Below are positions 1 to 19,037 of a DNA stretch of 23,247 nt, in pieces; the first letter of the stretch is position 1, and each line of letters starts with the position of its first letter. Made by a program: the position numbers and the translations under genes. The DNA is from a virus: positions 1-23,247 of IMG/VR virus record IMGVR_UViG_3300047476_000705; one strand, 5' to 3'. The notes beneath the pieces were generated by a model. That model saw only the letters and a list, made by a program, of their open reading frames with translations. It did no database searches and was not told the origin of the DNA.

Positions 1-1
1 C

Positions 2-670
2 GCCAACTCGGTGGACAGCATCAAAGCCCTGCCGACCGGCTCGGACTTCAATGTGTCGTTCACCATAAAAGCCAGCCTGCAGGCGTCAATCCGGAAAGCC
101 CTGATTGCCGACCAATTGCCGCCGGCCGATGGTCCCGCCAAGACGGCTTACGAGTACAGCGTGCGCGTCGACATGATGCGCCAAGCCCTTGGCCCGATCT
201 ACGGACGCCTGCAGGCTGAGTGGCTCCGGCCGCTGGTCGAGCGCTGCTTCGGCATCGCCATGCGTGCCGGTGTACTGGGCCCGGCTCCGGACACCCTGCA
301 AGGCCGTGACTTCTCGGTGGTTTACCAATCCCCGATGGCGCGCGCCCAGAAGATGGAAGATGTGGCCGCCATGGACCGCTTCGAGATGTCGCTGGCCAGT
401 CAGATGCAACAACTGGCCCAGGTGGATCCCGATGGCGCCATGGCCTTGGCCGATAACTACGACGCCGACCTTGCCGCACGCAAGCGGGCTGAATACTTGG
501 GCGTACCGGCTGACCTGATTCCGGACTCCAAGATCATCGAGAAAAAGCGCCAGATGCGTGAGCAGAAGCGCCAGCAACAACAACAGCAAGCAATCCTTCA
601 ACAAGGCGCAATGGCCGCCGCCCAAGCGGGCGGTGAGGCTATGGGCGCACAAATCGCGGGAGCGAACTAA
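2..670 (+). CDS. Portal (head-to-tail connector) protein, 3' part only
   Basis: C-terminal 222 residues of a portal protein; the frame is open to the window edge, so the true start lies upstream and the GTG at 11 is an internal codon. Portals form the dodecameric ring through which DNA enters and leaves the head. The segment with SFTIKASLQASIRKALIAD and, further on, RQALGPIYGRLQAEWLRPLVERC is typical of the T7 gp8-like head-to-tail connecting family, whose last third is helical. The tail end is a charged, glutamine-rich coil (KRQQQQQQ) followed by an Ala/Gly-rich end, as often seen at portal C-termini. It sits directly upstream of head genes, as expected. The stop overlaps the next start (TAATG). 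Family assignment is from recalled sequence character and gene order; no search was run. Confidence 0.88.
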   Translation, partial: ANSVDSIKALPTGSDFNVSFTIKASLQASIRKALIADQLPPADGPAKTAYEYSVRVDMMRQALGPIYGRLQAEWLRPLVERCFGIAMRAGVLGPAPDTLQGRDFSVVYQSPMARAQKMEDVAAMDRFEMSLASQMQQLAQVDPDGAMALADNYDADLAARKRAEYLGVPADLIPDSKIIEKKRQMREQKRQQQQQQAILQQGAMAAAQAGGEAMGAQIAGAN

Positions 671-954
671 TGGCAACCAACACCCTACTGGCTGCGGCCA
701 CCACTGCCAACGAATCAGCCGACTTCACCGTGGCCGTCGGCGGCACCCTGTCCCTGTACCTGAACTACGGCGCAGGCATCGAGGAATGCCCACCGACTGC
801 TGAAATCCTGATCCAGAAGAAGTCCGGCGCGGATTACGACACCATGTTCCGGCTGAACAGGGCGATGCCGTCCTGTGTCTTGAGTGGTGCGGGAACCTAC
901 CGCGCCAAGCGTGGGCTGCAAGACCGAGCCATCGGCGTCGATAGCGAAACCTGA
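670..954 (+). CDS. Small beta-rich virion-type protein of unknown function
   Basis: 94 residues. The start ATG overlaps the portal stop (TAATG) and the stop overlaps the next start (TGATG), so it is probably translated by coupling from the portal gene. The sequence alternates hydrophobic and polar residues (SLYLNYG, AEILIQKKSG) and ends with GTYRAKRG...AIGVDSET, a pattern I associate with small phage structural proteins of beta-sandwich type. No signal peptide, membrane segment or catalytic motif is visible. Its position between portal and the SGNH esterase suggests either a head or neck decoration protein or an adaptor for the esterase; this is inference. I do not recognise a named family. 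Confidence 0.6.
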   Translation: MATNTLLAAATTANESADFTVAVGGTLSLYLNYGAGIEECPPTAEILIQKKSGADYDTMFRLNRAMPSCVLSGAGTYRAKRGLQDRAIGVDSET

Positions 955-2507
955 TGTACCAGGCAATCGCCCAGCCGATTTACAAGCCCATCTACGAGGC
1001 TATCCAGAGCGTTCTGGGTAGCTTTAACCCGCGCTCACTATTTACGGCAGGATCAGCCGGCGCATGGTACGACCCGAGCGACTTTTCCACACTATTCCAA
1101 GACACCGCAGGCACAATCCCCGTCACCGCCGCAGGGCAAGTGGTCGGCAAGATGCTGGACAAGTCCGGCAACGGCCTAGACTTGGTTGCCCCGAGTAATC
1201 CACTGCGCCCAACGCTTCAGGTTGTGAATGGTGGCTATGCGCTGGTAGGTGCGGCGGCTGAGTACATGACGCGATCAGTTGGTGGTAACTATGCAAACTT
1301 CACGCTGATTGGCGCGGTAAGTGCTGCCACGGAATCTGGCATTAACGGCTGGTTTTTTGACCGCTTCAGCGGGGGTTTTTCCACATATCGCAACGGCGTA
1401 CTAACTGCCGCGCAGTTCTGGAACGGAAGCTCGTACCTAGAGGTATCAACATCTGGACTTGCCTTGCAGGGTAATGTCCCCTATGTGCAGACGGTTGGTT
1501 ATGACGGCACAACGGCCTATAACGGCAAGAACGGCGGGACACCACAGACGCGAGTTCAGGCATATACGCCGGACTCACTTGATGCCCTAAACATCATGGG
1601 CGCGGCATCCGTTGGATATTGGAATGGCGCGTTTTTTGGTTGTATCTACATCAACCGTACTTTGACCGCACAAGAAAAGCTGAATACGCAGGAATACTAT
1701 TACCGCAAGGCCAACATAAGGCCGATTATTGCGGTTGGCGACAGCTTCACCTATAACAACTCATACGGCCAGACGATTGCTGATTTCTACCCGGATCGGC
1801 TCGATGTGCTTCTTGGCACGACTGCCTATCAGGTGCAGAACCTTGGCGTGTCCGGCAATACTTCGGCAAACATGGTCGCCAGAATCACGGCGGTTGACCA
1901 TAAGCGCACGATGGGTAATGGCGTTGCGATTGTCTACGGCGGCACAAATGACACCAATGTGACCTTCTCCGTTCAGGCCGCCCCTGCGCCAACTTCCACG
2001 GTGTTCGCGGTTGAGGCGGGGCGGGGTAGCCGTTTCGGCGCTGGCGCATACATCACCGTCAATGGCGAACAGGCGTTAATCCTGTCTGTGGCGACCGACA
2101 CTATCACCCTGGCATCTGCGCTGAGCTTCACGCCAACAGCGGGGCAGACCGTCCTGATTGATACTCAGGCCAATATCGTCAAGCTGGTGCAGACCATCGG
2201 CTGTCCGAGGACGCTTGTGCTTGGTCAGCACTTCCTGAACTTCGCAACGGGCGGCGAGAACACCACGGCAAGCACAGGAACGCTAGAAACCCTGCGGAAC
2301 AAGCAGCGCACGGCGGCATCCCTGACCGGCGCGGTCTATGTTGACCTATACGACTGGATGCGTGACCTGATTGTGCTTGGTACTTACACGCTCGGCAACG
2401 ATACGGCTTGGCATGTTGCTGTGGGCGACACGCACCTGAACAATACGGGTGAGCAGATTGTTGCCGATGCGATATATGCCGCCATGACCGCCAGAGGGTG
2501 GATGTGA
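954..2507 (+). CDS. SGNH/GDSL-family hydrolase with N-terminal LamG-like region (putative virion esterase or tailspike)
   Basis: 517 residues. Residues about 30-240 look like a LamG/concanavalin-type beta domain (AWYDPSDFSTLFQDTAG, then KSGNGLDL). Residues about 258-517 are an SGNH hydrolase: block I G262-D263-S264 with the nucleophile Ser, block II G298-V-S-G301-N302, block III G329-G-T-N332-D, and block V with H494 in GDTHLN. The usual Asp three residues before the His is Gly491 here, with Asp492 next to it. About 60 residues between blocks III and V (roughly 343-404) look like an inserted beta domain. SGNH enzymes in phages often deacetylate or de-esterify capsule, LPS or cell-wall sugars. 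The place, between portal and scaffold, is unusual. Two sample lines inside the gene count 48-50% G+C against 60-62% in capsid and tail genes, which suggests recent acquisition. Substrate and virion location are unknown. Confidence 0.82.
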   Translation: MYQAIAQPIYKPIYEAIQSVLGSFNPRSLFTAGSAGAWYDPSDFSTLFQDTAGTIPVTAAGQVVGKMLDKSGNGLDLVAPSNPLRPTLQVVNGGYALVGAAAEYMTRSVGGNYANFTLIGAVSAATESGINGWFFDRFSGGFSTYRNGVLTAAQFWNGSSYLEVSTSGLALQGNVPYVQTVGYDGTTAYNGKNGGTPQTRVQAYTPDSLDALNIMGAASVGYWNGAFFGCIYINRTLTAQEKLNTQEYYYRKANIRPIIAVGDSFTYNNSYGQTIADFYPDRLDVLLGTTAYQVQNLGVSGNTSANMVARITAVDHKRTMGNGVAIVYGGTNDTNVTFSVQAAPAPTSTVFAVEAGRGSRFGAGAYITVNGEQALILSVATDTITLASALSFTPTAGQTVLIDTQANIVKLVQTIGCPRTLVLGQHFLNFATGGENTTASTGTLETLRNKQRTAASLTGAVYVDLYDWMRDLIVLGTYTLGNDTAWHVAVGDTHLNNTGEQIVADAIYAAMTARGWM

Positions 2508-2731
2508 CAACCAAGCAGGCGCTGCCGCCGGAAGTGTACGCCCGAGTGTTCGAGAACATCCCCGAGGGCGGGCAAATCCTTGAGGAACTGGTAGCCCGCT
2601 TCGGGCGAAATCCCTATGTAAAGGGCGGCCTTGAGGCCGACAGACAGACCGCTTTCAATGCCGGCGCGCTGGAAGTGGTCAATTTCATTCTGCGCCGGAT
2701 CGAACAAGCCCAGGGGGGCGACCATGACTGA
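2504..2731 (+). CDS. Bbp19-like small head-module protein
   Basis: 75 residues from GTG at 2504. A GTG at 2498 is also in frame, but GAGG at 2494-2497 has good spacing to 2504 and none to 2498. The gene overlaps the end of the esterase gene by four bases. The sequence EVYARVFENIPEGGQILEEL, then GLEADRQTAFNAGALEVVNFI, resembles the small Bbp19-type protein found just before the scaffold in BPP-1-like podophages. It is a short, mostly helical, acidic protein with no membrane segment. The family has no role known to me; a head-assembly role is inferred from its fixed place between portal and scaffold. The stop lies eight bases inside the scaffold gene. Confidence 0.65.
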   Translation: MTTKQALPPEVYARVFENIPEGGQILEELVARFGRNPYVKGGLEADRQTAFNAGALEVVNFILRRIEQAQGGDHD

Positions 2732-3473
2732 CTCTGTATTCGCAACAACCGAAACCGAAACCCCGACGGAAACGCCGACCGAAGTGCCACTGGCCGAGCG
2801 CATCCCCGAAAAGTACCGTGTCACCAAGGAAGACGGCAGCTTCGACATCGAGGCCAGCACCGCCAAACTGGTGGACAGCTATGCCAACCTCGAAAAGCGC
2901 ATGGGCTCCGGCGATGCCCCGCCCAAGGCTCCCGAGGAATACGCCCCGGAAGTGCCCGAGGGCTTCAATCTGGACACCATCAAGGAAGACCCGCTGTATC
3001 AGGATTTCCTCAAAGGTGCGCACGCCAAGGGCATGACCAACAAGCAGGTCGGCTGGATCCTCGAGGAGTTCACCAAGCGCCAAGGCATTGCGGCCGAGGC
3101 CGAGTCCGGCCAGTTGAGCGTGGACCAACTGCGTGCCGAACTGGCTCCGGTCTGGGGCGACGACCCCAAGGCATTCGATGCTGGCATCCAGTCGGGGCTC
3201 AAGGCCATCAAAGCCTATATGCCGAACATCACCCAGGAGCAACTGGCCACCATCCCGAACCATCCGCTGGTCATGCAACTGCTGGCGGCCGTGGGCAAGG
3301 AAGTGGGCGAGGATACCCGCGTGTCTGCCGGCGCCATCGATGCCAAGGACTTCGACAGCCAAGTGGCCGAGATCATGGCCGAGATTGCCACCTTGCCCGA
3401 GCGCGACCCGCGGCGTCTGCAACTGCTCGACAAGAAAGCGGCCCTGTTCGCCAAACGCTACGGCAAGAAATAA
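2724..3473 (+). CDS. Scaffold (capsid assembly) protein
   Basis: 249 residues. ATG at 2724 is chosen because AGGGGGG lies five bases upstream; the frame is open further upstream (to 2631), but that part overlaps the previous gene in another frame. The N-terminus is a low-complexity Thr/Glu/Pro stretch (ETETPTETPTEVP). The middle contains PEEYAPEVPEGFNLD and a long acidic helical region, and the end is a basic helix (LLDKKAALFAKRYGKK). This layout, acidic helical body with a basic C-terminal tail, is usual for T7 gp9-like scaffolds, whose C-terminus contacts the capsid protein. It lies immediately before the capsid gene and is followed by a terminator. Scaffolds act inside the procapsid and leave before or during DNA packaging. 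Confidence 0.85.
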   Translation: MTDSVFATTETETPTETPTEVPLAERIPEKYRVTKEDGSFDIEASTAKLVDSYANLEKRMGSGDAPPKAPEEYAPEVPEGFNLDTIKEDPLYQDFLKGAHAKGMTNKQVGWILEEFTKRQGIAAEAESGQLSVDQLRAELAPVWGDDPKAFDAGIQSGLKAIKAYMPNITQEQLATIPNHPLVMQLLAAVGKEVGEDTRVSAGAIDAKDFDSQVAEIMAEIATLPERDPRRLQLLDKKAALFAKRYGKK

Positions 3474-3510
3474 GTCCCCTCGGAGTCGCTGGCATGGCGG
3501 CGGCTCCCTT

Positions 3511-3534
3511 GCCTCGCTTCGGCGGGGCTTTTTT
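3511..3534 (+). terminator. Rho-independent terminator after scaffold gene
   Basis: GCCTCGC (3511-3517), loop TTCG, GCGGGGC (3522-3528) forms a 7-bp stem with one T-G pair and a stable UUCG loop, followed directly by six T (3529-3534). It ends the portal-to-scaffold transcription unit, or attenuates it, just before the capsid leader. Confidence 0.85.
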
Positions 3535-3543
3535 GTGTCTGCA

Positions 3544-3562
3544 ATAAATCCCCTTTTGGGTA
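3544..3562 (+). promoter_or_regulatory. Late-gene control element, copy 1 (candidate phage promoter upstream of capsid)
   Basis: The 19 bases ATAAATCCCCTTTTGGGTA occur exactly twice in the window, here and at 18185-18203. This copy begins nine bases after the T-run of the scaffold terminator and about 140 bases before the capsid start, the place where a new late transcript would begin. An AT-rich left part, a C/T middle and a GGG near the right end recall the general build of single-subunit phage RNA polymerase promoters, which start at G residues. No convincing sigma-70 -35/-10 pair uses this sequence: the nearest TATA lies 22 bases after it. The sequence shows only the repeat and its position; the promoter role is inferred. 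Confidence 0.55.
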
Positions 3563-3589
3563 GTGGCGTATTGGCAATCTGACTATAGC

Positions 3590-3605
3590 CCGGTCTGGCA
3601 ACCGG
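3590..3605 (+). other. Short hairpin in the capsid mRNA leader
   Basis: CCGGT (3590-3594) and ACCGG (3601-3605) form a perfect 5-bp inverted repeat around the six-base loop CTGGCA. No T-run follows, so it is not a terminator. If transcription starts at the 19-base element, this would be near the 5' end of the capsid mRNA and could stabilise it. The rest of the non-coding stretch 3535-3702 holds the 19-base element, this hairpin, a possible 22-codon leader frame and the capsid ribosome binding site. Confidence 0.4.
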
Positions 3606-3637
3606 ATAACTACTGCAGCCCGCGAATAGCCACGCGA

Positions 3638-3706
3638 ATGCCAGGCCCGTATGGACAACCTGCGATGGCGTACTCCCCACCCCATTTCAGAGGATTTTCC
3701 CAATGA
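3638..3706 (+). CDS. Possible 22-codon leader peptide ending on the capsid start
   Basis: An ATG at 3638 opens a frame of 22 codons (begins MPGPYGQPAMAYS) whose TGA at 3704-3706 overlaps the capsid ATG at 3703 in an ATGA junction, the same junction used by many genes here. No clear Shine-Dalgarno sequence precedes it, and the capsid gene has its own (AGAGGA). It may be a coupling leader or chance. Confidence 0.2.
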   Translation: MPGPYGQPAMAYSPPHFRGFSQ

Positions 3707-4566
3707 GCAACCAAATCACCGAAGCCTTCGTACAAGAGTTCGGCGCAGCCTACAACCATGTCGCCCAGCAGATGGCCTCGCGCCTCGAAGGCGCTGTCAA
3801 GGTCGAGTCCGGCATCGTCGGCACCAGCAAGTCCATCAACCGCGTCGGCCAGCAAATCGCCAGCCAGCGCACCACCCGCCACGGCGACACCCCGATCAAC
3901 GACACCCCGCACTCCACCCGTTATGTCGACCTGCTCGACTACGAAGTGGGTGACATGGTCGACGATCAGGACAAACTGCGCCTGCTCGTGGACCCGACCA
4001 GCGACTACCTGAAAGCCATGGTCGCCGCCCACAACCGCAAGAAAGACGACATCATCATCTCGGCTCTGGGTGGCAACAGCCGCGCCAGCACCGGCAATGT
4101 CGCCTTGCCTGCCGGTCAAAAGATTGCCGTCGGCGGCACCGGTCTGACCAAGACCAAAATCCTGCAGGCCCTCAAGCTGTTCCGTCAGAACGAAGCCGAC
4201 GAAGAAGCCGGTGAAGAACTGTACATCGCCTACAGCGCCACCGCCCTGCAAGATGTGCTGGCTGATACCCAGTTGACCTCGGCTGACTACATGGCCCTGC
4301 AGATGCTGCAAGCCGGTTCGCTGAAAGGCAAGTGGTGCGGTTTCAACTGGATCCCGACCGAGCGCTGCCCGAAAGTGTCCACCACCCGCTTCCTGTACGC
4401 CTGGGCCAAATCCGGCGTGGCGCTGGGTGTCGGTCAGAACATCGTCACCCGTGTCGGCGAAGACCCGTCCAAGTCCTTCAATATGCGCGTCTATGCCAAG
4501 CAGTCGCTGGGCGCCGTGCGTATCGAGGAAGAAAAGGTCGTCGAAATCGCCTGCGTCGAATCGTAA
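3703..4566 (+). CDS. Major capsid protein
   Basis: 287 residues. The start at 3703 has AGAGGA nine bases upstream. The protein begins MSNQITEAFVQEFGAAYNH and continues with a glycine- and charge-rich loop (TRHGDTPINDTPHSTRYVDL) and long amphipathic segments, ending in an acidic beta stretch (IEEEKVVEIACVES). This fits the short (about 280-330 residue) HK97-fold capsid proteins of BPP-1-like podophages. The gene lies between scaffold and cement genes. It is isolated transcriptionally: a terminator and the 19-base element precede it and a GC hairpin follows it, as expected for the most strongly expressed structural gene. Identity rests on order and sequence character. A role as the capsid shell protein is very likely; the exact subfamily is less sure. 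Confidence 0.87.
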   Translation: MSNQITEAFVQEFGAAYNHVAQQMASRLEGAVKVESGIVGTSKSINRVGQQIASQRTTRHGDTPINDTPHSTRYVDLLDYEVGDMVDDQDKLRLLVDPTSDYLKAMVAAHNRKKDDIIISALGGNSRASTGNVALPAGQKIAVGGTGLTKTKILQALKLFRQNEADEEAGEELYIAYSATALQDVLADTQLTSADYMALQMLQAGSLKGKWCGFNWIPTERCPKVSTTRFLYAWAKSGVALGVGQNIVTRVGEDPSKSFNMRVYAKQSLGAVRIEEEKVVEIACVES

Positions 4567-4574
4567 TACCGGAT

Positions 4575-4592
4575 GCCCCGCTTCGGCGGGGC
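4575..4592 (+). terminator. GC-rich hairpin after capsid gene (weak or partial terminator)
   Basis: GCCCCGC (4575-4581), loop TTCG, GCGGGGC (4586-4592) is a perfect 7-bp stem, almost the same hairpin as the one before the capsid gene at 3511. It is followed by GTTCTCC rather than a T-run, so it may only slow transcription or protect the capsid mRNA 3' end. Confidence 0.55.
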
Positions 4593-4628
4593 GTTCTCCA
4601 CCCCCCTCATATTCAGGAGTAAAGAATC

Positions 4629-5147
4629 ATGGCAGTTGAAGCACGCAAAGCCAGCGCCGTCACCGCGGCAGATGCTGGCACCGCAGTAAAGAAAAACATC
4701 AGCGCTGGTCTGCTGAAAGAGTCCGTCGGCGTCGTTGAAGTGGTCAATGCTGACAGCATTGCCTCCACCTACCGCCTCGCCCGCGTCCCGTCGAATGCCC
4801 GTGTCAGCCGTGTGCTGATCTCGTGCGACGCCATCACCTCGGCCGCTGCCGATGTGGGCGTTTACGACATCCCGGCCGTCAACTCGGGCGCTGCGATCGA
4901 TGTGGACTTCTTCGCATCGGCCCAGTCCATCGCCACCGCCCTGTCGCATACCGACATCACGCACGAAGCCGACCCGGCCGACGCTGGTGCTGGCTACGGC
5001 CAAGGCGATGTCGAGAAGCCGCTGTGGCAAGCCCTCGGCCTGACCGCTGACCCGGGCAAGCTGTACGACATCGTGGCGACCCTCACCGCCGCCGCAACCG
5101 CAACCGGCACCCTGGCGCTCAAAGTCCAGTATGTCGACGGCAACTGA
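4629..5147 (+). CDS. Putative capsid cement/decoration protein
   Basis: 172 residues, with AGGAG nine bases before the ATG. The body is rich in Ala, Val, Thr, Ser and Asp (VGVVEVVNADSIASTYRLARVP, then VSRVLISCDAITSAAADVGVYDIP), which suggests a beta-sandwich with an acidic surface. It has no membrane segment or catalytic motif. In BPP-1-type phages the gene right after the major capsid gene codes for the jelly-roll cement protein Bbp16. Place, size and beta-rich make-up fit that role, but I cannot show homology. It is followed by a strong terminator, so it forms with the capsid gene a short high-expression unit. Confidence 0.6.
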   Translation: MAVEARKASAVTAADAGTAVKKNISAGLLKESVGVVEVVNADSIASTYRLARVPSNARVSRVLISCDAITSAAADVGVYDIPAVNSGAAIDVDFFASAQSIATALSHTDITHEADPADAGAGYGQGDVEKPLWQALGLTADPGKLYDIVATLTAAATATGTLALKVQYVDGN

Positions 5148-8899: not shown

Positions 8900-10893
8900 T
8901 GGCCAAGATTCCCTATGTCGGCCTGAACTCGCCTTTCGGCAACCGAGGCCCTGACCGCAACACTCCGATGAATGCCGACACCCGAGGCATTGGTTCGGGA
9001 TTGGCAGAGGCGGCTATTGGAATTGCCAAGATTGGCGGTTCGGTGGTGGATGCGATGCAACAGCAGCGGGAGCAGGAACAGGCTCTGGCGGCGGCAGAGG
9101 CGCAAGTCGAACTGCAGCGCCGGACCAACGCGGCAGGTGCCGTGCTGACCGAGTGGACGGACATCGCAAGCCGTCCTGGCTACAATCTGGAAAATGCGGA
9201 TCAGGACATTCAGGGTGCGCTGGACGGCATCGAGAAGCGCGACATCCCCAACCTGTCACCCGAGCGCAAAATCATTTACGACGGCGCAATGCGCAACCTT
9301 GACCAAGACACACTGGCAAGGGCAGGGCAATACCGCAAGACCGTCTATGCCAACCGTGCAGAGGCGGCATTTGCTGCTGGCACGGATGAACTCGGCTCTC
9401 GGGCAACCAACCCCGACCAAGACATCAACGAACTGTATGCCAATGCCGACGCCATGGGCGAAGCGGCTGCCTTCAATCTGCCGGTGGACATGGTGCAGAC
9501 CAAGGTACGGGCGGCCAAGGAAAGCATCTCAGCCGGTCGAATCGGTATCCGTCTGGCCGGGGCGCAGTCCATCGAGGCGCTTGATGCGCTTGAGGCCGAT
9601 GTCGGCGGCGACAAGTATGTGCTGGACGGCACCAAGAAAGCTGCCTATCTGAGCACCATTGCCAACAAAAAAAACACCCTGCAAAACCGCATGGACAATG
9701 ACCTGCAGGCGCGTGAGCGCGGCGCGGAACGGGCGGTCAACGATCTGCAAGGGTATGCCAAGTCGGGATTCCCCCCGCAGCCGCAGGATGTTCTGGACAA
9801 AATCGAAGCGACCCGAGGCACGCCGTTTGAGAAACAGGCACGCCAAGCCGCCCAAATGATCGACATGAACAAAGAGTTCTACACCATGCCGCTGGCTGAG
9901 GCAGAAAAACAGATTGATGATGTGACCTATCTGGCGCGAAACAATGCCAAAGGCAACGAGGATCCGGCGTTCATCAAGTCGGCACTGTCGGCAGCTCAAG
10001 AGATCGTCAAAGAGCGCAAGGCGCTGGCCATGAAGCACCCCATCGAGGCTATGGCCACGGACTCCGGCGTCAAGTTCGAGAAGCTGGACTACCAGAATCC
10101 CGTTAAATTGGCTGAGCAGGTCATCTACCGGATGGACAGGATTCATGCCTACCAAAAGCGCCAAGGCATTCCCGGCATACCGCCCAACCCGTTCACCGAG
10201 GCCGAGCAGTTGGAGTTCAACGACCTGCTGACCAGGTCGCCCAATGACAAGGCGAAAATCAACCTGCTATCTGCCGTGACCGGCGCGGCCACTGGCCCCG
10301 GCGAGTTCAAGCAGATCATGGCCGAGGTCAAGCAGAACAGCCCGCTGAATTACGCGGTGGGCGAACTGCTGGCCATCTCCCCGCAGGCCGGCAAGAACAC
10401 GGCGGCGGCCATCTATGACGGCCAAAAGATTCTGACCGACAAGATTATGCCGGTGCCAGCGGAGAACTTGCTGCTGTCCGAGTACCTGACGCGCACCGAT
10501 GGCGCTCTGGACCCCAGTAGTGATGAGTTCAAGAACGGATACGAGCGATTCAAGCGCCTGTATGCGACCAAGCTGACCGCCGACATGAGCAAGGATGTGG
10601 TCAGTTCCGACGCGGCGACATGGGCATTCAGCATGGCAACCGGCGGGGTAGCAAAAACAGACTACGGTTCCATCGTGAAGCCCTACGGAATGCGCACCGA
10701 CGACCTGATCAAGAAGCTGCCGGACGCCATCATGTCCAGCGCGAAGGCCGCGGGCGTGGCGCTCGATGACCTGGACAGCTATGAGCTGGACCCGCGCCCC
10801 GATTACAACGGCCAGTATTACCTGATTCAGGCCAACGGCGAGATCGTGGTAAACCCCAAAACATCCGACCCAATCATTGTGAAAATTAAATGA
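8899..10893 (+). CDS. Internal virion protein C (T7 gp15-like ejection protein)
   Basis: 664 residues (T7 gp15 is about 747). It starts at a TGATG overlap with the gp14-like gene. The first 30 residues are Gly/Pro-rich; then the protein is almost wholly alpha-helical, with Ala-, Gln- and Glu-rich heptad-like stretches (DAMQQQREQEQALAAAEAQ) and many short helices, as known for gp15. In T7 this protein joins gp16 to form the tube that spans the periplasm during ejection. No catalytic motif was seen. Assignment is by order (directly before the gp16-like gene), size and helical make-up, rather than by a diagnostic motif. Confidence 0.82.
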   Translation: MAKIPYVGLNSPFGNRGPDRNTPMNADTRGIGSGLAEAAIGIAKIGGSVVDAMQQQREQEQALAAAEAQVELQRRTNAAGAVLTEWTDIASRPGYNLENADQDIQGALDGIEKRDIPNLSPERKIIYDGAMRNLDQDTLARAGQYRKTVYANRAEAAFAAGTDELGSRATNPDQDINELYANADAMGEAAAFNLPVDMVQTKVRAAKESISAGRIGIRLAGAQSIEALDALEADVGGDKYVLDGTKKAAYLSTIANKKNTLQNRMDNDLQARERGAERAVNDLQGYAKSGFPPQPQDVLDKIEATRGTPFEKQARQAAQMIDMNKEFYTMPLAEAEKQIDDVTYLARNNAKGNEDPAFIKSALSAAQEIVKERKALAMKHPIEAMATDSGVKFEKLDYQNPVKLAEQVIYRMDRIHAYQKRQGIPGIPPNPFTEAEQLEFNDLLTRSPNDKAKINLLSAVTGAATGPGEFKQIMAEVKQNSPLNYAVGELLAISPQAGKNTAAAIYDGQKILTDKIMPVPAENLLLSEYLTRTDGALDPSSDEFKNGYERFKRLYATKLTADMSKDVVSSDAATWAFSMATGGVAKTDYGSIVKPYGMRTDDLIKKLPDAIMSSAKAAGVALDDLDSYELDPRPDYNGQYYLIQANGEIVVNPKTSDPIIVKIK

Positions 10894-13800
10894 GCGCATT
10901 CAACAAGAGCGATGATGTCACCCAAGACGAAAGGGATGTAGTAGCCCAGCGCAACCGGAACGCGGCCAAAGCGTCCGAGAACCCCGGCCTGTTTGCTGGC
11001 GCGACCGAGCTGTGGAAGCTGCCTGTTTCAGGCGGTGCAAAGGTCGTCGGCGGGTTTGAACCACTGTTCAATGTGCCAGGCAAGGTAAACGAAATCTATG
11101 CCGGCGTGGCCTACAACCTGACACCGGGCGCGTATGGCGAAAATGCCGACGAAGCCGGGAAACTGTATCAGGACCGGATTCGCTGGTCGAATGACTTGGA
11201 GCGTGAGAACCGCGAATGGGCGGCGCAGTATTACCGCCAGTCCGATGCCTATTACCAAAACCCCCAAGGCGAGGGAACGCAGGTTGTCCGCGCCATTGGT
11301 GAAATCATCCCCCGCGCCATTCTTGGCAACAAGTTTGGCCTTGCCGGAAGCGCGGCCGCGGTAGGCGTTCCCGAGGGCGGGGTAACCGAAACCCGTCTTG
11401 TGGATCAGGGCGTGGCTCCTGATGTGGCAGAACAGGCGGGCGACATTACGGCCGCGACCTTTGCTGGCATGAGCCTGTTCCCGGCGGCAAGACTGTCAAA
11501 CAGTATGCTGGCTGACCTTGGCCTTGTGGTTGGCGGCAATGTGGCCATGGGCGCAGGGCAACGCGAACTGTTGAGCCAGGTGCTTGCAGACACGCCAGAG
11601 ATTGCCAAGCAATACGAGGCAATGGATACCAATGCCATCGCCACGGATGTCCTGCTGTCCGTTCCGTTCTGGGGTCTTGCCCGTATGGGCGGCAGTGGCG
11701 TCAGTGCGCAACAAAAGGTCGAAGTCGTTGACCGTGCCCTGACGGTGAAAGCCAACGAGCAGGCCAATGCGATGGACGGCAAAGCACCGGCCACGCCGAA
11801 AGACACCCGCGCCGTGCGCCAGAACAAAGCCGCCGGCATTGAGGCCATCCTGAACGATAAGCCGATGCCGGATCCCAAGCCGGTCAATGCCGTGGATGTG
11901 CCGGAAGCCGCCATCCAGAAACAGGCATTCGCTGAGTCGATTGCCGAGGCCATCCGCACTGGCGATGTGTCCGGTATTCGTCTGATCGAGGATGCGCCGG
12001 CCGTTGATGCACCACCGCCGGCAGATGCCTTTGACCTGAAGGCCGAGGCCGTGATGCGCCGGATTGATGGCAGTATTGGCCAAATCAAGCGCGAATCCCT
12101 GTACGGGGCCGTGGAATATATTGAATCGCGGGGCAGGGCTGATGCCGTGTCCCCCAAAGGCGCAGTAGGCCCGATGCAGACCATGCCGGAAACCCTGCGT
12201 GATCCTGGCTACGGCGTGCGTCCGGCCGCCGATAATTCGACCGCAGAGTTGCGCCGTGTTGGCCGCGACTATGTGGATGCCATGACCAAGAAGTATGGAC
12301 TTGAGGGCGGGCTTGCCGCCTACAACTGGGGCCCCGGAAATTGGGAAAAAGCACTGGCCAAAGCCGGCGGCGATGTGAAAAAGGCGCTTGCCTCGGCACC
12401 GGCTGAAACGCGCGCCTATGTCCCGAAAGTGCTTGCGCGAATCCCCGGCGCAGCGGATACTTACCCCAACGGCGTACCCAAAAACCTGCCGGAGGTGGAA
12501 GCTGATGTCCGAGAAATCAATACTGAATTTTCCCGTGTCACCGCGCAAGGCGCTGATGGATCAGTACGAAGCCACCGTGGCGTCCGGGCAATCGACCAAG
12601 GATCTCTGCCTGACGAGCTGGCTTCTTCACTGCAAGCCATCGACGAAGCCCTCGGAGTCAAGACTACCGTTGTCCGAAATCTCTCCCCAGAAGTAAGGGA
12701 TTTCCACGGCACCACCCTGGGCGATGGCCGTATATTCGTCAACGAGAACAGCGCCCACCCGCTGGTCACTGTGGCCATGCACGAGTTCGGCCACAATCTG
12801 GAAACGACCCATCCCGACCTGTACGCACCCCTGCGTGCGGAGATTGAGCGCCAGTCTGCCGATGGTCTGGCATTCTTCAAGCGCGACACCAAGCAAGCCG
12901 ACGATGCCACGGCGGTCCGTGAGCTGACCAACAACGCCATCGGCGATGCCCTGAGCGACCCGAAGTTCCTGCGCCGGATGGCCGACGAAAACCCGACAGT
13001 CTTTCAGCGCGTGGCCGAAACGGTCATGAAGTATCTGGACGGGCTGCTGGCCAAGGTCGGCCTGAAAGACTACGGCTCGGACCGGTATCTGGATGATGTG
13101 GCCGTGTTCCGCGATCTGCTGGCTTCCACCCTGACCGAATACAATGCCCGCACCGTGGGCTTCGATGAGAAAGGCGCTGTGCTGGCCTATGCTGACGAAA
13201 TCGGCTGGGAGCAGGTCGGCGGCCGCCTGGTCGGAAAGTCCGGCATGGACGAGGGAATGACCGGGCAGGGCGGTGGATTCCAAGTATCTGGCCGCAGCAC
13301 ATGGATCCCGAAGGCCGCGCGCAACGGCAAGCGTTCCCAGTTCTGGTCGAATCGCCCCGAAGGAATCACAGAGGACACCGCACGCAAGGCGCTGGCCAAG
13401 TTTAGCGCCGGCAAGAAGCTGGGCGCGGCCGAGCAGCGGTTCATCGATTACGCCAAGAAAGCCGCCAAGATTGACGAGGCTGAGCGCCAGCAGGCGTTTG
13501 CCGACTTCATGCAGTCCGAGGCCAACCGGCGTGAATTACAGTTTTCCGACAAGCTCGATGACGGCTTTGAGGTTCCCGCTAACGCTTCGCCAGAGGAGGC
13601 CGCGGCCTACCGCATGGCGCAGACCATGCCCAATGCGCAGGTCGAGTTTGGCTACGACCTGGACGGCAACCCCATCAAGACCGTCGGCGAGGCGGTGCAA
13701 GTCATCGAGAAGCTCAAGATCGAGGACATGAACAAGGCCAAGCGATTCGGCCAAGTGGTCGAGCGCGTGGTAGCCGGCAAGACCCTGACCGATGCTGAGG

Positions 13801-16235
13801 CCAAGGTGTCGGACACCATCGCCGCCAAGTACCGTGAGATGGAAAAGGCCGGCGATGCCAAGTTCCTTGACATGAGCAAGTACGAGCGCCTGCAGTATTC
13901 CGCAGAAATGGCCGGCAAGGAAGCTGAGATTCTGGCGGCCAAGGCGGCACAGCGCAGGGCGGCAAGCCTGCTGGCCCAGACTGAGAACCTGCAGCGCGTG
14001 CTTGACCGTGCGCCGAACATGAATCCGGGCCTGCTGGACAAGTATGTGTTTGGCAAGCAACAAGTCACCGACGCGGTATTCGAGCGCCTTGGGCAAGTGT
14101 TCAGCCGAGTTCAAGGCGAACAGCACGCCGCCCGTGCAAGTTTCATGGAGGCGCTGGAAGCGACCAGCCCCAAGTTTTTCGGACTGATCCGCAACACCGA
14201 GGGGATGCTGGCCTTTGCGCGTGAAGTGCTGGGCGAGGACAGCGGTAGCCCCGATGCCAAGAAAGCTGCCAAGGTGTATCTGGATGCCATCGAGGCCATG
14301 CGCGTCCGGGCCAACAGCCTGGGCATGAACATCGGCAAGCTGCCGTATGGCTGGCTTCCGCACCAGTGGGATCAAGGCATGATTGCTCACGGCGGCCGGA
14401 GTCTGGCCGAGCGTGCGGCGACCAAGGCCAGGGGCGAAACCTACACGCCAGCAGATGCCCGCGACGGCTTCGTCAAGGATATGCTGGAACACACCGATCT
14501 GACCGCCCTGCGCAATGAGGACGGCACGGTGATGGACTTGGAGGATGCCACCGCGTTCTATGAGTCGTCATTCGACACCCTGTTCAGCGATGGCCGGAAC
14601 AAGGGCGAAGTCGGCGGGCGTGGCACGCGTGCCTCGAAGTATGACGGCAAGCACCGTGTTATCCACTTCAAGAACGCCGAAAGCTACATGGCGATGATGG
14701 ACAAGTACGGCGGCGGGCGTGATCTGATGCAGGCGATCATGGGCCACATGGACACCATGGCCAAGGACATTGCCATGCTGGATGAATTGGGTGCGAACCC
14801 TGCCCAGACTTTCGAGCTGCTGAAATCCACGGCTGAGCGTGTCGACAACAAGCCGGGGGCAACCTCACAGGGCGCAACGCTGGACATGGTGTTTTCGGTG
14901 CTGAATGGCGAAGTGTCCACTCCGGTCAATGCGACCATTGCCAACTTCGGGCAAGCAACGCGCAACTGGGTGACGGCTACGGCGCTCCAAGGGGTCATGC
15001 TGTCGAGCATTACCGATGCCCCGCTGCAGCAGTTGGTCATCAAGAGTTACGGGCTGGATTTGGGCAAAGGACTCAAGACCACGCTGGGCTCATTCGGCGG
15101 CGACACTGCCAAGGAAGCGGCCAAGCTCGGCATCGTGACCGACTACCTTGCCAACGAGATGGCGCTCTGGGGGCAGGACAATGCCGCCGCCAGCACCACC
15201 GGAAAGCTGGCCGAAGCCACCATGCGCCTGACCGGCGTGAACCGCTGGACGCATTCGATGCGCCGGGGCGCTGAGCTCAATCTGGCCATGGGGATCACCG
15301 ATTGGGTGAATAAGCCATGGGTAAGCCTTGAGGGCAAGACGCTGGAGAATTTCACCCAAAGCGGCGTGACCGAGGCAGACTGGGCGGTATGGCAGAAGGC
15401 CATCCCTTCCGAATTCAAAGGACAGAAAATCCTCGACTACAAGAACATCATGGCCGTGGATGACCCCAATGCCGGCCGCGCCGCGATGCGGTATCTGGGA
15501 ATGCTTGATGATTTTGGCAAGCTGGCGGTGTACGCGCCGGATGTGCGGGTACGCGCAGCTCTGACGCAAGATACAAAGTCCGGAACGGTTGGCGGTGAGC
15601 TCATGCGAAGCATGACCCTGTTCAAATCCTTCGCCCTGGGGATGCCCATGCGTCACCTGCGCCGGTTGCGGCAGATGGATGGCAAGAGCAAGGCCCAGTA
15701 TTCCGCTGCTTACCTTATGGGCCTGACTGCGTTTGGCGCTCTGGCTATCCAACTCAAGCAGATTGCCGCTGGTAAAGACCCGCAGGACATGACTGAGGAA
15801 AAGTTCTGGCTCTCATCCTTGGCGCAAGGCGGCGGTCTAGGCATTCTGTACGATGTGATCTACAAGGGCGTGGAAGCCGAGGGACGCACAGGCCGGCAGA
15901 ACTGGCGCAGCTTATCCAGTCCGGTGTTTGGCCGAGCCGCCGACGCCATCGAAGTGGGCATGGAAGGTGTGATGGTGGCAGCCGGTAGCCAGAAGCATGA
16001 AAAGCAATTCCGCGAACACGCCGCCCGCTTTGCGACCGACAATATCCCATTCTCGAAAATCTGGTGGTACAAGGAAGCCTTCAATCAGATCCTTGGGCAC
16101 GAGATGCGGGAAACCATCAGCCCCGGATACACGGCAAAGGAACGGGCGCGGGCCCAGAAGTACGGCGAGAGCTTCTACATGAAACCCAACGGCGATGTGC
16201 GATCGCCGGACCTTGAAAAGGCGGTAGGCGAATGA
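10890..16235 (+). CDS. Giant ejection protein (T7 gp16-like) with lytic transglycosylase and metzincin-like domains
   Basis: 1781 residues, longer than T7 gp16 (about 1318). It starts at an ATGA overlap. Residues about 400-515 are an SLT lytic transglycosylase: catalytic E412 in ESRG, then SPKGAVGPMQTMP (about 422-434), then A477-YNWGPG. In T7 this domain is at the N-terminus; here roughly 400 residues precede it. A second enzyme-like site follows: H631-E632-F-G-H635-N-L-E-T-T-H641, the HExxHxxxxxH spacing of metzincin zinc proteases with Glu where Gly is usual. The remaining 1100 residues are largely helical, like the gp16 rod, with a hydrophobic stretch near 1610-1635 (AAYLMGLTAFGALAI) that could enter the inner membrane. 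The expected job is to degrade peptidoglycan locally and form the DNA channel during infection. The protease function is inferred only. Confidence 0.88.
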   Translation: MSAFNKSDDVTQDERDVVAQRNRNAAKASENPGLFAGATELWKLPVSGGAKVVGGFEPLFNVPGKVNEIYAGVAYNLTPGAYGENADEAGKLYQDRIRWSNDLERENREWAAQYYRQSDAYYQNPQGEGTQVVRAIGEIIPRAILGNKFGLAGSAAAVGVPEGGVTETRLVDQGVAPDVAEQAGDITAATFAGMSLFPAARLSNSMLADLGLVVGGNVAMGAGQRELLSQVLADTPEIAKQYEAMDTNAIATDVLLSVPFWGLARMGGSGVSAQQKVEVVDRALTVKANEQANAMDGKAPATPKDTRAVRQNKAAGIEAILNDKPMPDPKPVNAVDVPEAAIQKQAFAESIAEAIRTGDVSGIRLIEDAPAVDAPPPADAFDLKAEAVMRRIDGSIGQIKRESLYGAVEYIESRGRADAVSPKGAVGPMQTMPETLRDPGYGVRPAADNSTAELRRVGRDYVDAMTKKYGLEGGLAAYNWGPGNWEKALAKAGGDVKKALASAPAETRAYVPKVLARIPGAADTYPNGVPKNLPEVEADVREINTEFSRVTAQGADGSVRSHRGVRAIDQGSLPDELASSLQAIDEALGVKTTVVRNLSPEVRDFHGTTLGDGRIFVNENSAHPLVTVAMHEFGHNLETTHPDLYAPLRAEIERQSADGLAFFKRDTKQADDATAVRELTNNAIGDALSDPKFLRRMADENPTVFQRVAETVMKYLDGLLAKVGLKDYGSDRYLDDVAVFRDLLASTLTEYNARTVGFDEKGAVLAYADEIGWEQVGGRLVGKSGMDEGMTGQGGGFQVSGRSTWIPKAARNGKRSQFWSNRPEGITEDTARKALAKFSAGKKLGAAEQRFIDYAKKAAKIDEAERQQAFADFMQSEANRRELQFSDKLDDGFEVPANASPEEAAAYRMAQTMPNAQVEFGYDLDGNPIKTVGEAVQVIEKLKIEDMNKAKRFGQVVERVVAGKTLTDAEAKVSDTIAAKYREMEKAGDAKFLDMSKYERLQYSAEMAGKEAEILAAKAAQRRAASLLAQTENLQRVLDRAPNMNPGLLDKYVFGKQQVTDAVFERLGQVFSRVQGEQHAARASFMEALEATSPKFFGLIRNTEGMLAFAREVLGEDSGSPDAKKAAKVYLDAIEAMRVRANSLGMNIGKLPYGWLPHQWDQGMIAHGGRSLAERAATKARGETYTPADARDGFVKDMLEHTDLTALRNEDGTVMDLEDATAFYESSFDTLFSDGRNKGEVGGRGTRASKYDGKHRVIHFKNAESYMAMMDKYGGGRDLMQAIMGHMDTMAKDIAMLDELGANPAQTFELLKSTAERVDNKPGATSQGATLDMVFSVLNGEVSTPVNATIANFGQATRNWVTATALQGVMLSSITDAPLQQLVIKSYGLDLGKGLKTTLGSFGGDTAKEAAKLGIVTDYLANEMALWGQDNAAASTTGKLAEATMRLTGVNRWTHSMRRGAELNLAMGITDWVNKPWVSLEGKTLENFTQSGVTEADWAVWQKAIPSEFKGQKILDYKNIMAVDDPNAGRAAMRYLGMLDDFGKLAVYAPDVRVRAALTQDTKSGTVGGELMRSMTLFKSFALGMPMRHLRRLRQMDGKSKAQYSAAYLMGLTAFGALAIQLKQIAAGKDPQDMTEEKFWLSSLAQGGGLGILYDVIYKGVEAEGRTGRQNWRSLSSPVFGRAADAIEVGMEGVMVAAGSQKHEKQFREHAARFATDNIPFSKIWWYKEAFNQILGHEMRETISPGYTAKERARAQKYGESFYMKPNGDVRSPDLEKAVGE

Positions 16236-16564
16236 GAAAGGACCAACGCATCAAACTGGCGGCATTGTCGGAGAAGCTGGCCGACTATGCCATTGAGGCA
16301 GCCGACCCGAGCCACTGGGGCGTGACCACGCCGCGGGCATCCGACATGAGCAAGGAGGAGCGCTATGACGCGACCTTGAACATCAAGTATGCCAGTGCGG
16401 CCGTCGGGCTTCTGGTGCGCGTCGAGCAGGTGGTGGCGTCACGCAATCCGGTGTTCGACGGCGTGAACGAGCCGAGTGTCGATGGTGAAATCAAGGCCGC
16501 CGAGCGCAAGGCCGAGGAACTGCTGGGGCGGGTGATGAAACGACATGGCAAAGCCCAAGCCTAA
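16232..16564 (+). CDS. Putative terminase small subunit
   Basis: 110 residues beginning at an ATGA overlap with the gp16-like gene and ending 20 bases inside the large terminase gene. It is mostly helical and charged (KDQRIKLAALSEKLADYAIEA; then EIKAAERKAEELLGRVMKRHG), with a basic C-terminal end. Small terminases of T7-like phages (gp18, about 90 residues) sit next to the large subunit and are short helical DNA-binding or regulatory proteins, which fits in size and place. I see no helix-turn-helix motif I can defend. It could instead be an unrelated accessory protein. Confidence 0.55.
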   Translation: MRKDQRIKLAALSEKLADYAIEAADPSHWGVTTPRASDMSKEERYDATLNIKYASAAVGLLVRVEQVVASRNPVFDGVNEPSVDGEIKAAERKAEELLGRVMKRHGKAQA

Positions 16565-18188
16565 AATCAGCTTCCTCGCCTTTTTCCTGCTGTGGGCAGA
16601 ACGGCAAGGGTGGGATGTCCCTGACCTCCATGTCCGGGTCTGTGTCTGGCTGGAGAACAAAGGCCCGCTGGCCCTGCTCATGCTCCCCCGAGGCCATGCC
16701 AAGTCCACCATCTTGGGCATCTATAACGCATGGCGGTATTACTGCGAGCCGCACCTGCGGATCCTGCACCAGGGCGAGTCCGACCCCACCGCCTTCAAGA
16801 CCGCGCGCGATACCAAGGCGGTCCTGCAACGGCACCCGCTGACGGCTGACATGGCCCAAGGCTTGCGTGGTGAGGTGTCGTTCTGGTGGCTTCCGGGCAA
16901 TCTGGACGAGCGCAACCCATCCATGCAGGCCGCTGGCGTGCTGTCGAATGTGACCTCCTCGCGCGCCGATGAAATCCAGAACGACGACATCGAGGTGCCC
17001 AAGAACATCCAGACCGCCGACGCCCGCGAGAAGCTGCGCTACCGGACCGGCGAGCAGGTCCACATTCTGGTGCCCGGTGGCACGGAGCTGTATGTCGGCA
17101 CCCCGCACACGCACGAATCGATCTACAACGACATCATGGCCCAAGACGCCGACTGCTTCATTGTCCGGATGTTCGACCAGGAGTACCGCATCGAGGATGC
17201 CAAGGCCGGCCGTCATGCCATCCCGTTCATGCCGCAGTTCATCTTTGCCGGCATCGGGCAACCGGCCCGACTGCTCAAGCTGAATCAGGACTACCGCATC
17301 GAGGTCAAGGGCAGCGCCTACACCCTGACCCTGTTGGAGCCCCATAGCTTTCTGGACTGCTACGCGGGGCAGGCATGGCCGGAACGGTTCGGTGCCGACG
17401 AACTGGAGCGCCGCCGCCGGAAGACCCGCACCATCAACGAATGGGACAGCCAGTATCAGTTGCACGCCAAGCCGGTCACGCAGACCCGCCTTGATCCTGA
17501 CCGCCTGTTCGAGTACGACATCGAGCCGGAACTGCGCGAGGCCAATGGCGAGGTGTCGATGTGGCTGGGCCATGCGCGTCTGGTGTCGGCATCGCTACGG
17601 TGGGATCCGGCATCCGGCAAGACCGGCTCCGATGTGTCGGCCTTGGGTCTGGTGTTCTCGGACGGCACAGGCCGGCGCTACATCCACCGGACGGAGCCCC
17701 TGATGGGCGACATTGCCGAGTACGGCGCCGACGGCAAGACCATCATCGGCGGGCAGGTGCATACCATCTGCAACACGGTGGAGCGTTTCGCCCTGGGCAG
17801 GGTCACGATTGAAACCAACGGCATCGGCGGGTTCGCCCCGGCGGTGCTCAAGGCCGCCCTGAAACAGCGCGGATTGCAGTGCGGCGTCACCGCCAAGCAT
17901 TCCGTCGGCCAGAAAAACAAGCGCATTCTGGAGGGATTGGAGCCCCTGCTCAATACGGCGGGGATGCTGTGGGCGCATTCCTCGGTGCTCGATGGCCCGA
18001 TCTACGCCCAGATGCAGCAGTGGAATCCGGCCATGACCGGGCAGGAAGACGACTACCTCGATGTGGTGGCGCTGGCCTGTACCGACATTCCGGAACGGGT
18101 GGGTAAAGACTTCGTGAATCACGGCCGGCCGCGCAAGCACTGGACCGGCAGCGTCGGCTCGGTGGAAGCGGAGTTCAGCCGGGGATAA
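16545..18188 (+). CDS. Terminase large subunit (packaging ATPase/nuclease)
   Basis: 547 residues (T7 gp19 is about 586). ATPase part: Walker A R49-G-H-A-K53-S-T in LMLPRGHAKST, and a Walker B-type end D147-D148-I-E150. Nuclease (RNase H-like) part: D354 in RWDPASGKTGSDVSA, E423 in ETNG, and D503/D506 in EDDYLDVVAL, the three acidic positions expected to bind metal. The AKST form of the P-loop is common in this family. The enzyme docks at the portal, pumps DNA into the procapsid and cuts concatemers. It overlaps the small-subunit gene by 20 bases. Its stop codon lies within the second copy of the 19-base element, so transcription control for the fibres begins where this gene ends. Confidence 0.94.
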   Translation: MAKPKPKISFLAFFLLWAERQGWDVPDLHVRVCVWLENKGPLALLMLPRGHAKSTILGIYNAWRYYCEPHLRILHQGESDPTAFKTARDTKAVLQRHPLTADMAQGLRGEVSFWWLPGNLDERNPSMQAAGVLSNVTSSRADEIQNDDIEVPKNIQTADAREKLRYRTGEQVHILVPGGTELYVGTPHTHESIYNDIMAQDADCFIVRMFDQEYRIEDAKAGRHAIPFMPQFIFAGIGQPARLLKLNQDYRIEVKGSAYTLTLLEPHSFLDCYAGQAWPERFGADELERRRRKTRTINEWDSQYQLHAKPVTQTRLDPDRLFEYDIEPELREANGEVSMWLGHARLVSASLRWDPASGKTGSDVSALGLVFSDGTGRRYIHRTEPLMGDIAEYGADGKTIIGGQVHTICNTVERFALGRVTIETNGIGGFAPAVLKAALKQRGLQCGVTAKHSVGQKNKRILEGLEPLLNTAGMLWAHSSVLDGPIYAQMQQWNPAMTGQEDDYLDVVALACTDIPERVGKDFVNHGRPRKHWTGSVGSVEAEFSRG

Positions 18189-18203
18189 ATCCCCTTTTGG
18201 GTA
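18185..18203 (+). promoter_or_regulatory. Late-gene control element, copy 2 (candidate phage promoter upstream of fibre genes)
   Basis: This is an exact second copy of ATAAATCCCCTTTTGGGTA (first at 3544). It overlaps the large-terminase stop (TAA at 18186-18188) and lies 45 bases before the first fibre start. No terminator hairpin precedes this copy, unlike copy 1. The flanks of the two copies differ from the first base outside the 19, so the conserved unit is sharply bounded. TATA-like bases occur 24 bases after it (18227) and 22 after copy 1, too far and too variable for a -10 box served by this sequence. The role as promoter is inferred. Confidence 0.55.
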
Positions 18204-18248: not shown

Positions 18249-19037
18249 ATGACCGTTCCCGCCACTTACACCCCCAACGCTTACTATGCCAACGGCAGCA
18301 CCACGGACTTCCCGTTTGGCTTCAAGGTATTCGATGAAAGCCACCTGCTGGTCACTGTCAATGGCGTGACTCAGGCGCTCACCACGAACTACACCGTGAC
18401 CGGCATCGGCACGGAAACCGGCGGCACGGTCACTTTCCTTGTGGCCCCGAGCAATGGCGCATACATCGAGCTGCGCCGGAGTGTTCCGTTGTCACGGCAA
18501 ACCGATTACCAAGCCAATGGCGAACTGCGGGCCGACACGGTCAACGCCGATTTCGACCGGCTCTGGATGGCACTGCAGGAACTCATCACCACGGGAGCTC
18601 TGCTGTCGCCGATCGAGCTGGGCGCGGCCGTTGCCGGCGTGCCGGTGGTGACATTCACCACGGACGGCGTGGCATTCACCAATGCGCTGTTCAAGGGCTA
18701 TCAAGCCTTCCAAGTGGCAACCCCGACCATTGCGGCCGGTGTACTGACGCTGGACATGGAAACCGGCCCCTACTTCAAAGTGGCGCACAACGCCAACATC
18801 ACCACGCTGACTCTGACCAATGTGCTGGCCACCTACGGCTCCAACTTCATCCTTGAGCTGACCCAAGATGGTGTCGGCGGCAAAACCCTTGCATTCCCCG
18901 CCTCGGCGCGCGCTGCCGGCGGTGTTGCCAGTCTGGCCCCGACCACCACGGCCAATGCGCGGAACATCTACTCCTTCGTGACCGCTGACGCCGGCACGAC
19001 TTGGACGGTGTCCGTGATGAAGGATGTGAAAGCCTAA
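18249..19037 (+). CDS. Tail fibre protein with T7 gp17-type N-terminal attachment domain
   Basis: 262 residues from ATG 18249, preceded by GCAGGG with eight-base spacing; an in-frame GTG at 18222 is less likely. The first 120 residues (ANGSTTDFPFGFKVFDESHLLVTV, then ELRRSVPLSRQTDYQANG) match the T7 fibre N-terminal domain that attaches the fibre to the tail nozzle. The end (LTLTNVLATYGSNFILELTQDG, then TTWTVSVMKD) is a beta domain seen in phage fibre proteins. At 262 residues it is far shorter than T7 gp17 (about 553), so it is likely only an adaptor or short stem, with binding parts supplied by the following genes. The stop overlaps the next start (TAATG). Confidence 0.88.
   Translation: MTVPATYTPNAYYANGSTTDFPFGFKVFDESHLLVTVNGVTQALTTNYTVTGIGTETGGTVTFLVAPSNGAYIELRRSVPLSRQTDYQANGELRADTVNADFDRLWMALQELITTGALLSPIELGAAVAGVPVVTFTTDGVAFTNALFKGYQAFQVATPTIAAGVLTLDMETGPYFKVAHNANITTLTLTNVLATYGSNFILELTQDGVGGKTLAFPASARAAGGVASLAPTTTANARNIYSFVTADAGTTWTVSVMKDVKA

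Follow-up and report, generated by a model that had tools for sequence, protein, structure and literature searches.

A 19-bp sequence repeated ahead of the late gene modules of a temperate podovirus probably forms the upstream half of three late promoters, which would serve the portal, capsid and fibre operons. The sequence is predicted to be bound by a small HTH protein of the phage, which would activate the sigma-70 RNA polymerase of the host. Each promoter would comprise a 14-bp dyad box with an AT-rich lead at about -38 to -25, followed by 12 bp and a -10-like hexamer of the form xAnnnT, with no -35 element.

The window, meaning the whole stretch of DNA analysed, is a 23,247-nt IMG/VR fragment of this phage. 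It carries the 3' end of the portal gene and genes for the scaffold, capsid, tail tube proteins, internal virion proteins, terminase, fibre and lysis functions. The capsid protein shares 38-44% identity with those of Pelagibacter phage HTVC010P and its relatives and of Yersinia phages YeP4-6. A contig of 14,233 nt (L034) matches window positions 1-5017 at 99.9% identity and adds 9.2 kb upstream. This upstream part is lambda-like, with a YqaJ exonuclease, a cI-like gene, replication genes, a NinB-like gene, a Ref-type nuclease and one RusA-like gene. Joined, window and contig cover 32.5 kb of a genome of perhaps 37 kb, leaving about 5 kb uncovered. Two window genes stand apart from the promoter question. 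Between portal and scaffold, positions 954-2507 encode a 517-aa protein that is SGNH-hydrolase-like by eye (the match to phrog_14008 is weak) and is possibly a moron. Positions 10890-16235 encode a 1,781-aa virion protein in which a transglycosylase-like part (phrog_2013) is joined to a C-terminal half assigned to phrog_684, with an HEFGH metalloprotease-like motif between the two.

The repeat ATAAATCCCCTTTTGGGTA occurs exactly at window positions 3544-3562 and 18185-18203, both on the + strand, as a sequence-only reading had reported. No further window site has three or fewer mismatches, and none arose in 100 dinucleotide shuffles. A third copy, AAAAATCCCCTTTTGGGTA, differs at one position and lies beyond the window (L034:7787-7805), ahead of small genes and the portal operon. 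Over the joined 32.5 kb, the wider scan at up to four mismatches that had been suggested for the full genome yields this one addition and no more: the next-best 19-mer site has seven mismatches, no better than expected by chance. One box match called automatically, at +827 in L034, was discarded, as it lies inside a coding sequence. Among 2.9 million viral contigs, the exact 17-mer AAATCCCCTTTTGGGTA was confined to L034 and L035, each of which is a record of this phage. All three copies lie on the late strand, one ahead of each late module (portal, capsid and fibre), which supports the earlier view of a promoter-type element placed as in T7. The relevant window features are as follows.

3511..3534, + strand: intrinsic terminator, with a stem at 3511-3528 of 7 pairs (6 GC) followed by T6; it ends the portal/scaffold operon directly before copy 1
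3544..3562, + strand: box copy 1, predicted capsid late promoter; AT-rich lead plus TCCCC-TTTT-GGGTA, exact 19-mer repeat, with the relatives' class A box at the same place
3575..3580, + strand: -10-like hexamer CAATCT with TGn ahead of it; it fits xAnnnT and stands 12 bp downstream of copy 1, within the spacing of the family
3703..4566, + strand: major capsid protein (phrog_3437, E 7.7e-92), the first gene that copy 1 would serve
16545..18188, + strand: terminase large subunit (phrog_38, E 1.4e-77), the gene ending at copy 2
18185..18203, + strand: box copy 2, predicted fibre late promoter; exact 19-mer repeat whose first bases overlap the terminase stop codon
18216..18221, + strand: -10-like hexamer TAGGCT; it fits xAnnnT and stands 12 bp downstream of copy 2, within the spacing of the family
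18249..19037, + strand: tail fibre/spike protein (phrog_1640 N-terminal anchor, E 6.4e-42), the first gene that copy 2 would serve

The surroundings of both copies agree with their earlier description as non-coding or nearly so. Copy 1 is non-coding and directly follows the intrinsic terminator, again as first described. The start of copy 2 coincides with the terminase stop codon (18186-18188), and its end lies 45 nt ahead of the fibre ATG. The assignment of copy 2 as a fibre promoter is supported by the relatives, in which a box also lies inside the 3' end of the terminase gene. Copy 2 is overlapped, at positions 18181-18194, by a terminator-like stem, GGGGATAAATCCCC, with TTTT after it. It was rejected as an explanation of the repeat, being present at copy 2 only.

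Downstream of the box, the signal has a second part. An xAnnnT hexamer stands exactly 12 bp after all three copies in this phage (CAATCT, CAATCT and TAGGCT). Of 45 deduplicated boxes from relatives, 42 have the same pattern exactly 13 bp downstream and the other three have it at 12 bp, with counts of 0-5 at other spacings. By base composition, the 42/45 figure has a probability of about 1e-57, to be read with the caution that the deduplicated boxes are partly related by descent and not fully independent. The two fixed bases of the hexamer correspond to A-11 and T-7, the most important positions of a sigma-70 -10 element. The hexamers are otherwise poor, mostly with 3/6 matches to TATAAT. None of the 45 deduplicated boxes has a -35 better than 3/6, and TGn, the extended -10, precedes the hexamer in only two of them; in this phage it is found at copy 1 only. 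Against the standard sigma-70 criteria, the promoters as a set have a -10 with A-11 and T-7 and lack a TTGACA-like -35 or an extended -10. The earlier statement that no sigma-70 boxes fit the repeat stands for the -35 and falls for the -10, as a -10-like xAnnnT follows every copy at 12 bp. A blind scan for a dyad, N12/13 and xAnnnT with at least three like copies returned a single group in this phage, identical to the 19-mer repeat, and a single group in the relative G009.

The motif of this phage was searched for in its relatives, and nothing was found. The relatives' own element emerged from comparing places rather than letters: phages with a capsid about 70% identical carry a different repeat upstream of capsid and fibre, AAATA-GTCGG-GAWW-CCGAC (class A). 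Complete relatives have about five class A copies per genome, all on the late strand, located at the end of the early region, ahead of the portal, capsid and large internal virion protein genes, and inside the 3' end of the terminase gene. None lies between cI and cro or elsewhere in the immunity region of the relatives. The same layout recurs in Yersinia phage YeP5, in Pseudomonas prophages and in a prophage of E. coli 23GD11002. A tally confined to the 81 contigs that encode the small HTH protein gave 164 class A boxes, against 1-4 in shuffles of all 81. At least two boxes are present in 63 of these contigs, and a box lies within 60 nt of the HTH stop codon in 41. Most box classes conserve a GGAWW core. 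A repeat search in the distant relatives Piluca, TPWB-05 and G016 (L036, L037 and G016 among our records) found no analogous box, despite an HTH protein about 30% identical.

The candidate regulator is a protein of 86 aa (L034:7527-7787), encoded by the last early gene before the first box, its stop codon touching that box. Wherever the early region of a relative is covered, a homologue stands in the corresponding position. The gene lies within the early lytic operon, at the position of Q in lambda and away from the cI-like repressor. Neither Pfam nor NCBIfam gave a match to the protein above cut-off, and no PDB relative was found by sequence. All 38 HTH members match the PHROG 16553 profile (E 2.7e-14 for the protein of this phage), which is labelled transcriptional repressor without stated evidence. 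An AlphaFold model (pLDDT 83.5) predicts a compact multi-helix HTH fold of the XRE type. The nearest structures are the small dimeric regulators C.EcoT38IS, CylR2 and C.Esp1396I; the match to C.EcoT38IS (Z 8.5, rmsd 2.5 over 70 residues) has a Z low enough to indicate a common fold only.

In six lineages, a change in the box is accompanied by one in the recognition helix. Where R/K is the second helix residue and GW (or GY) comes later in the helix, the box is GTCGG..CCGAC or a near variant, and the departures from this pairing are:

L070: helix PN, box GGCGG..CCGCC
L102 and L116-118: helix GL/GI, box TTCGG..CCGAA
L142: helix SP, box TTCAG..TCTAA
This phage: helix PP, box TCCCC..GGGTA
L103/L140: helix STLDNY/STLDQY (R/K kept, later residues changed), box TCCGG..CARGA
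L109/L112: helix SSIFYW (R/K kept, later residues changed), box GCCAG..TAGAA

The xAnnnT at 12-13 bp is kept in all covarying lineages. Such covariation ties the box to the HTH protein and weakens explanations based on host factors. One explanation of this kind, in which an alternative host sigma uses the box as its -35 or a host regulator binds there, would account for the absence of a sigma-70 -35 alongside a GGAWW core conserved in most classes. We nevertheless consider it very unlikely: from one phage lineage to another, the box varies in step with the HTH gene of the phage, and it is found again in phages of three host genera (Pseudomonas, Escherichia and Yersinia). Similarly little weight is given to the dyad as an RNA hairpin, either a boxB/nut-like antitermination site or a processing site. 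The class A arms do form a perfect inverted repeat with a GAAA loop, and they change symmetrically in L070 (GGCGG/CCGCC) and in L102/L116 (TTCGG/CCGAA). However, the pairing is largely lost in several lineages, which weakens this reading: L142, L140 and L109/L112 keep only 3, 2 or 1 of the five pairs while retaining the spacing to xAnnnT. A fixed distance of 13 bp to a -10 would be meaningless for an RNA hairpin, and copy 1 lies after, not before, its terminator.

The sequence-only reading had proposed that the 19-mer is the promoter of an undescribed single-subunit phage RNA polymerase, in view of its position ahead of capsid and fibre, like phi10 and phi17 of T7. This proposal now appears extremely improbable. 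No T7 RNA polymerase homologue was detected in the records of this phage (32.5 of perhaps 37 kb), in eight complete relatives or in YeP5, with T7 itself as positive control (E=0). That query replaced a PF00940 search, which gave no match even in controls and was not used. Nor is there a polymerase-type gene in the annotation of the E. coli prophage, whose stretch begins with the integrase and reaches the first part of the spike gene. Moreover, the early region is lambda-like, with cI, Ref and RusA, and the signal is bipartite with a host-type -10 rather than one contiguous promoter of about 20 bp with the start at its end. A more serious competitor, though still an unlikely one, casts the HTH protein as a repressor and the boxes as operators, which would keep the late promoters off until induction. 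It draws on the PHROG 16553 label, on the XRE-type fold common to many repressors, on the overlap of the box with the region of sigma region 4 and on C.Kpn2I, an XRE protein that represses from a site over a real -35 (PMC6237814). Here, in contrast, the missing -35 favours activation over repression: with no -35 and almost no extended -10, there would be little basal activity to repress. The position of the HTH gene in the early lytic operon, at the Q position and away from the cI-like gene, suits an activator made after induction, and no box lies between cI and cro.

Under the preferred reading of the HTH protein as an activator, induction would lead to early transcription through the HTH gene. 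The XRE-fold protein, probably dimeric, would then bind the dyad box at about -39 to -26, the place otherwise taken by sigma region 4. Once bound, it may recruit or stabilise the host sigma-70 RNA polymerase and thereby make weak, -10-only promoters usable, switching on the portal, capsid and fibre operons. The copies and their places, the fixed spacing, the missing -35, the gene position, the recurrence across the family and the covariation are features of the sequences themselves, and from them we infer binding, dimerisation, activation and the use of host sigma-70. Several points count against this account. A dimer centred near -32, at the usual site of sigma region 4, would be unusual for an activator of the XRE fold, and this phage has three boxes only in the 32.5 kb covered. 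The PHROG repressor label, the C.Kpn2I precedent for repression, the poor -10 hexamers and the distant relatives without a repeat also weigh on the same side.

The arrangement resembles several known systems in part. In T4 middle promoters, a MotA box 13 bp upstream of the -10 replaces the -35 (PMC2988021). The MotA/AsiA system shares with the present one a phage box in place of the -35, 12-13 bp from a sigma-70 -10, and a phage protein (here predicted) working with the host polymerase. The T4 box, however, is a 9-bp asymmetric sequence serving middle genes with AsiA as partner, whereas here a dyad box and a predicted XRE fold, with no AsiA-like partner known, would serve the late genes of a temperate podovirus. 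Lambda CII and other small phage HTH activators are likewise very small HTH proteins with sites in the -35 region of promoters that lack a useful -35. The CII site is a TTGC-N6-TTGC direct repeat, unlike the inverted repeat ahead of late structural operons described here, and none of the 38 HTH members matched the CII Pfam family or any Pfam activator family. The XRE controller (C) proteins of restriction-modification systems, which include the nearest predicted structures, have an XRE fold of about 80 aa and dyads near the -35, and they activate or repress. C-boxes are two adjacent autoregulatory dimer sites, whereas the present boxes are single and lie at several distant late promoters; no sequence relation between the HTH protein and C proteins was found. 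Lambda Q and P2 Ogr offer the precedent of a single phage regulator of late genes, and the HTH gene lies in the Q position. Unlike in those systems, several promoters here each have their own box, rather than relying on antitermination, and the HTH protein gave no match to the Ogr zinc finger.

The capsid leader also contains two small hairpins, at window positions 3586-3612 (TAG-C-CCGG..CCGG-ATAA-CTA) and 3642-3662 (CAGG-C-CC..GG-ACAA-CCTG). Both share an asymmetric internal loop, with C opposite AYAM. Across 26 aligned leaders, the first has 8 pairs, 6 of them with two-sided changes. No Rfam family corresponds to these hairpins, which look like an undescribed leader RNA, possibly one involved in capsid autoregulation. 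In enterobacterial relatives (L159 at 22181 and L066 at 19932), the second hairpin contains GCCGGGAAACCGAT, a sequence very like the promoter box.

HTVC010P-like temperate podoviruses carry T7-like virion genes without a phage polymerase, and how their late genes are switched on is undescribed in the open-licence literature searched, where we found no account of this element or of the group's late promoters. The answer proposed here names both the protein and the site, specifies a fixed geometry, and extends to prophages of Pseudomonas and E. coli. It also presents a case of an XRE-fold protein apparently working from the place of sigma region 4, and the box and protein pairs that have diverged in nature provide material for work on promoter specificity. 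More tentatively, and as a possibility we hold with less than even confidence, the family may share a late switch in which an XRE-fold dimer of about 85 aa stands in for the contact between sigma region 4 and the -35 at about five dispersed late promoters, with no help from an AsiA-like partner. Box and protein would have diverged together into mutually insulated regulons.
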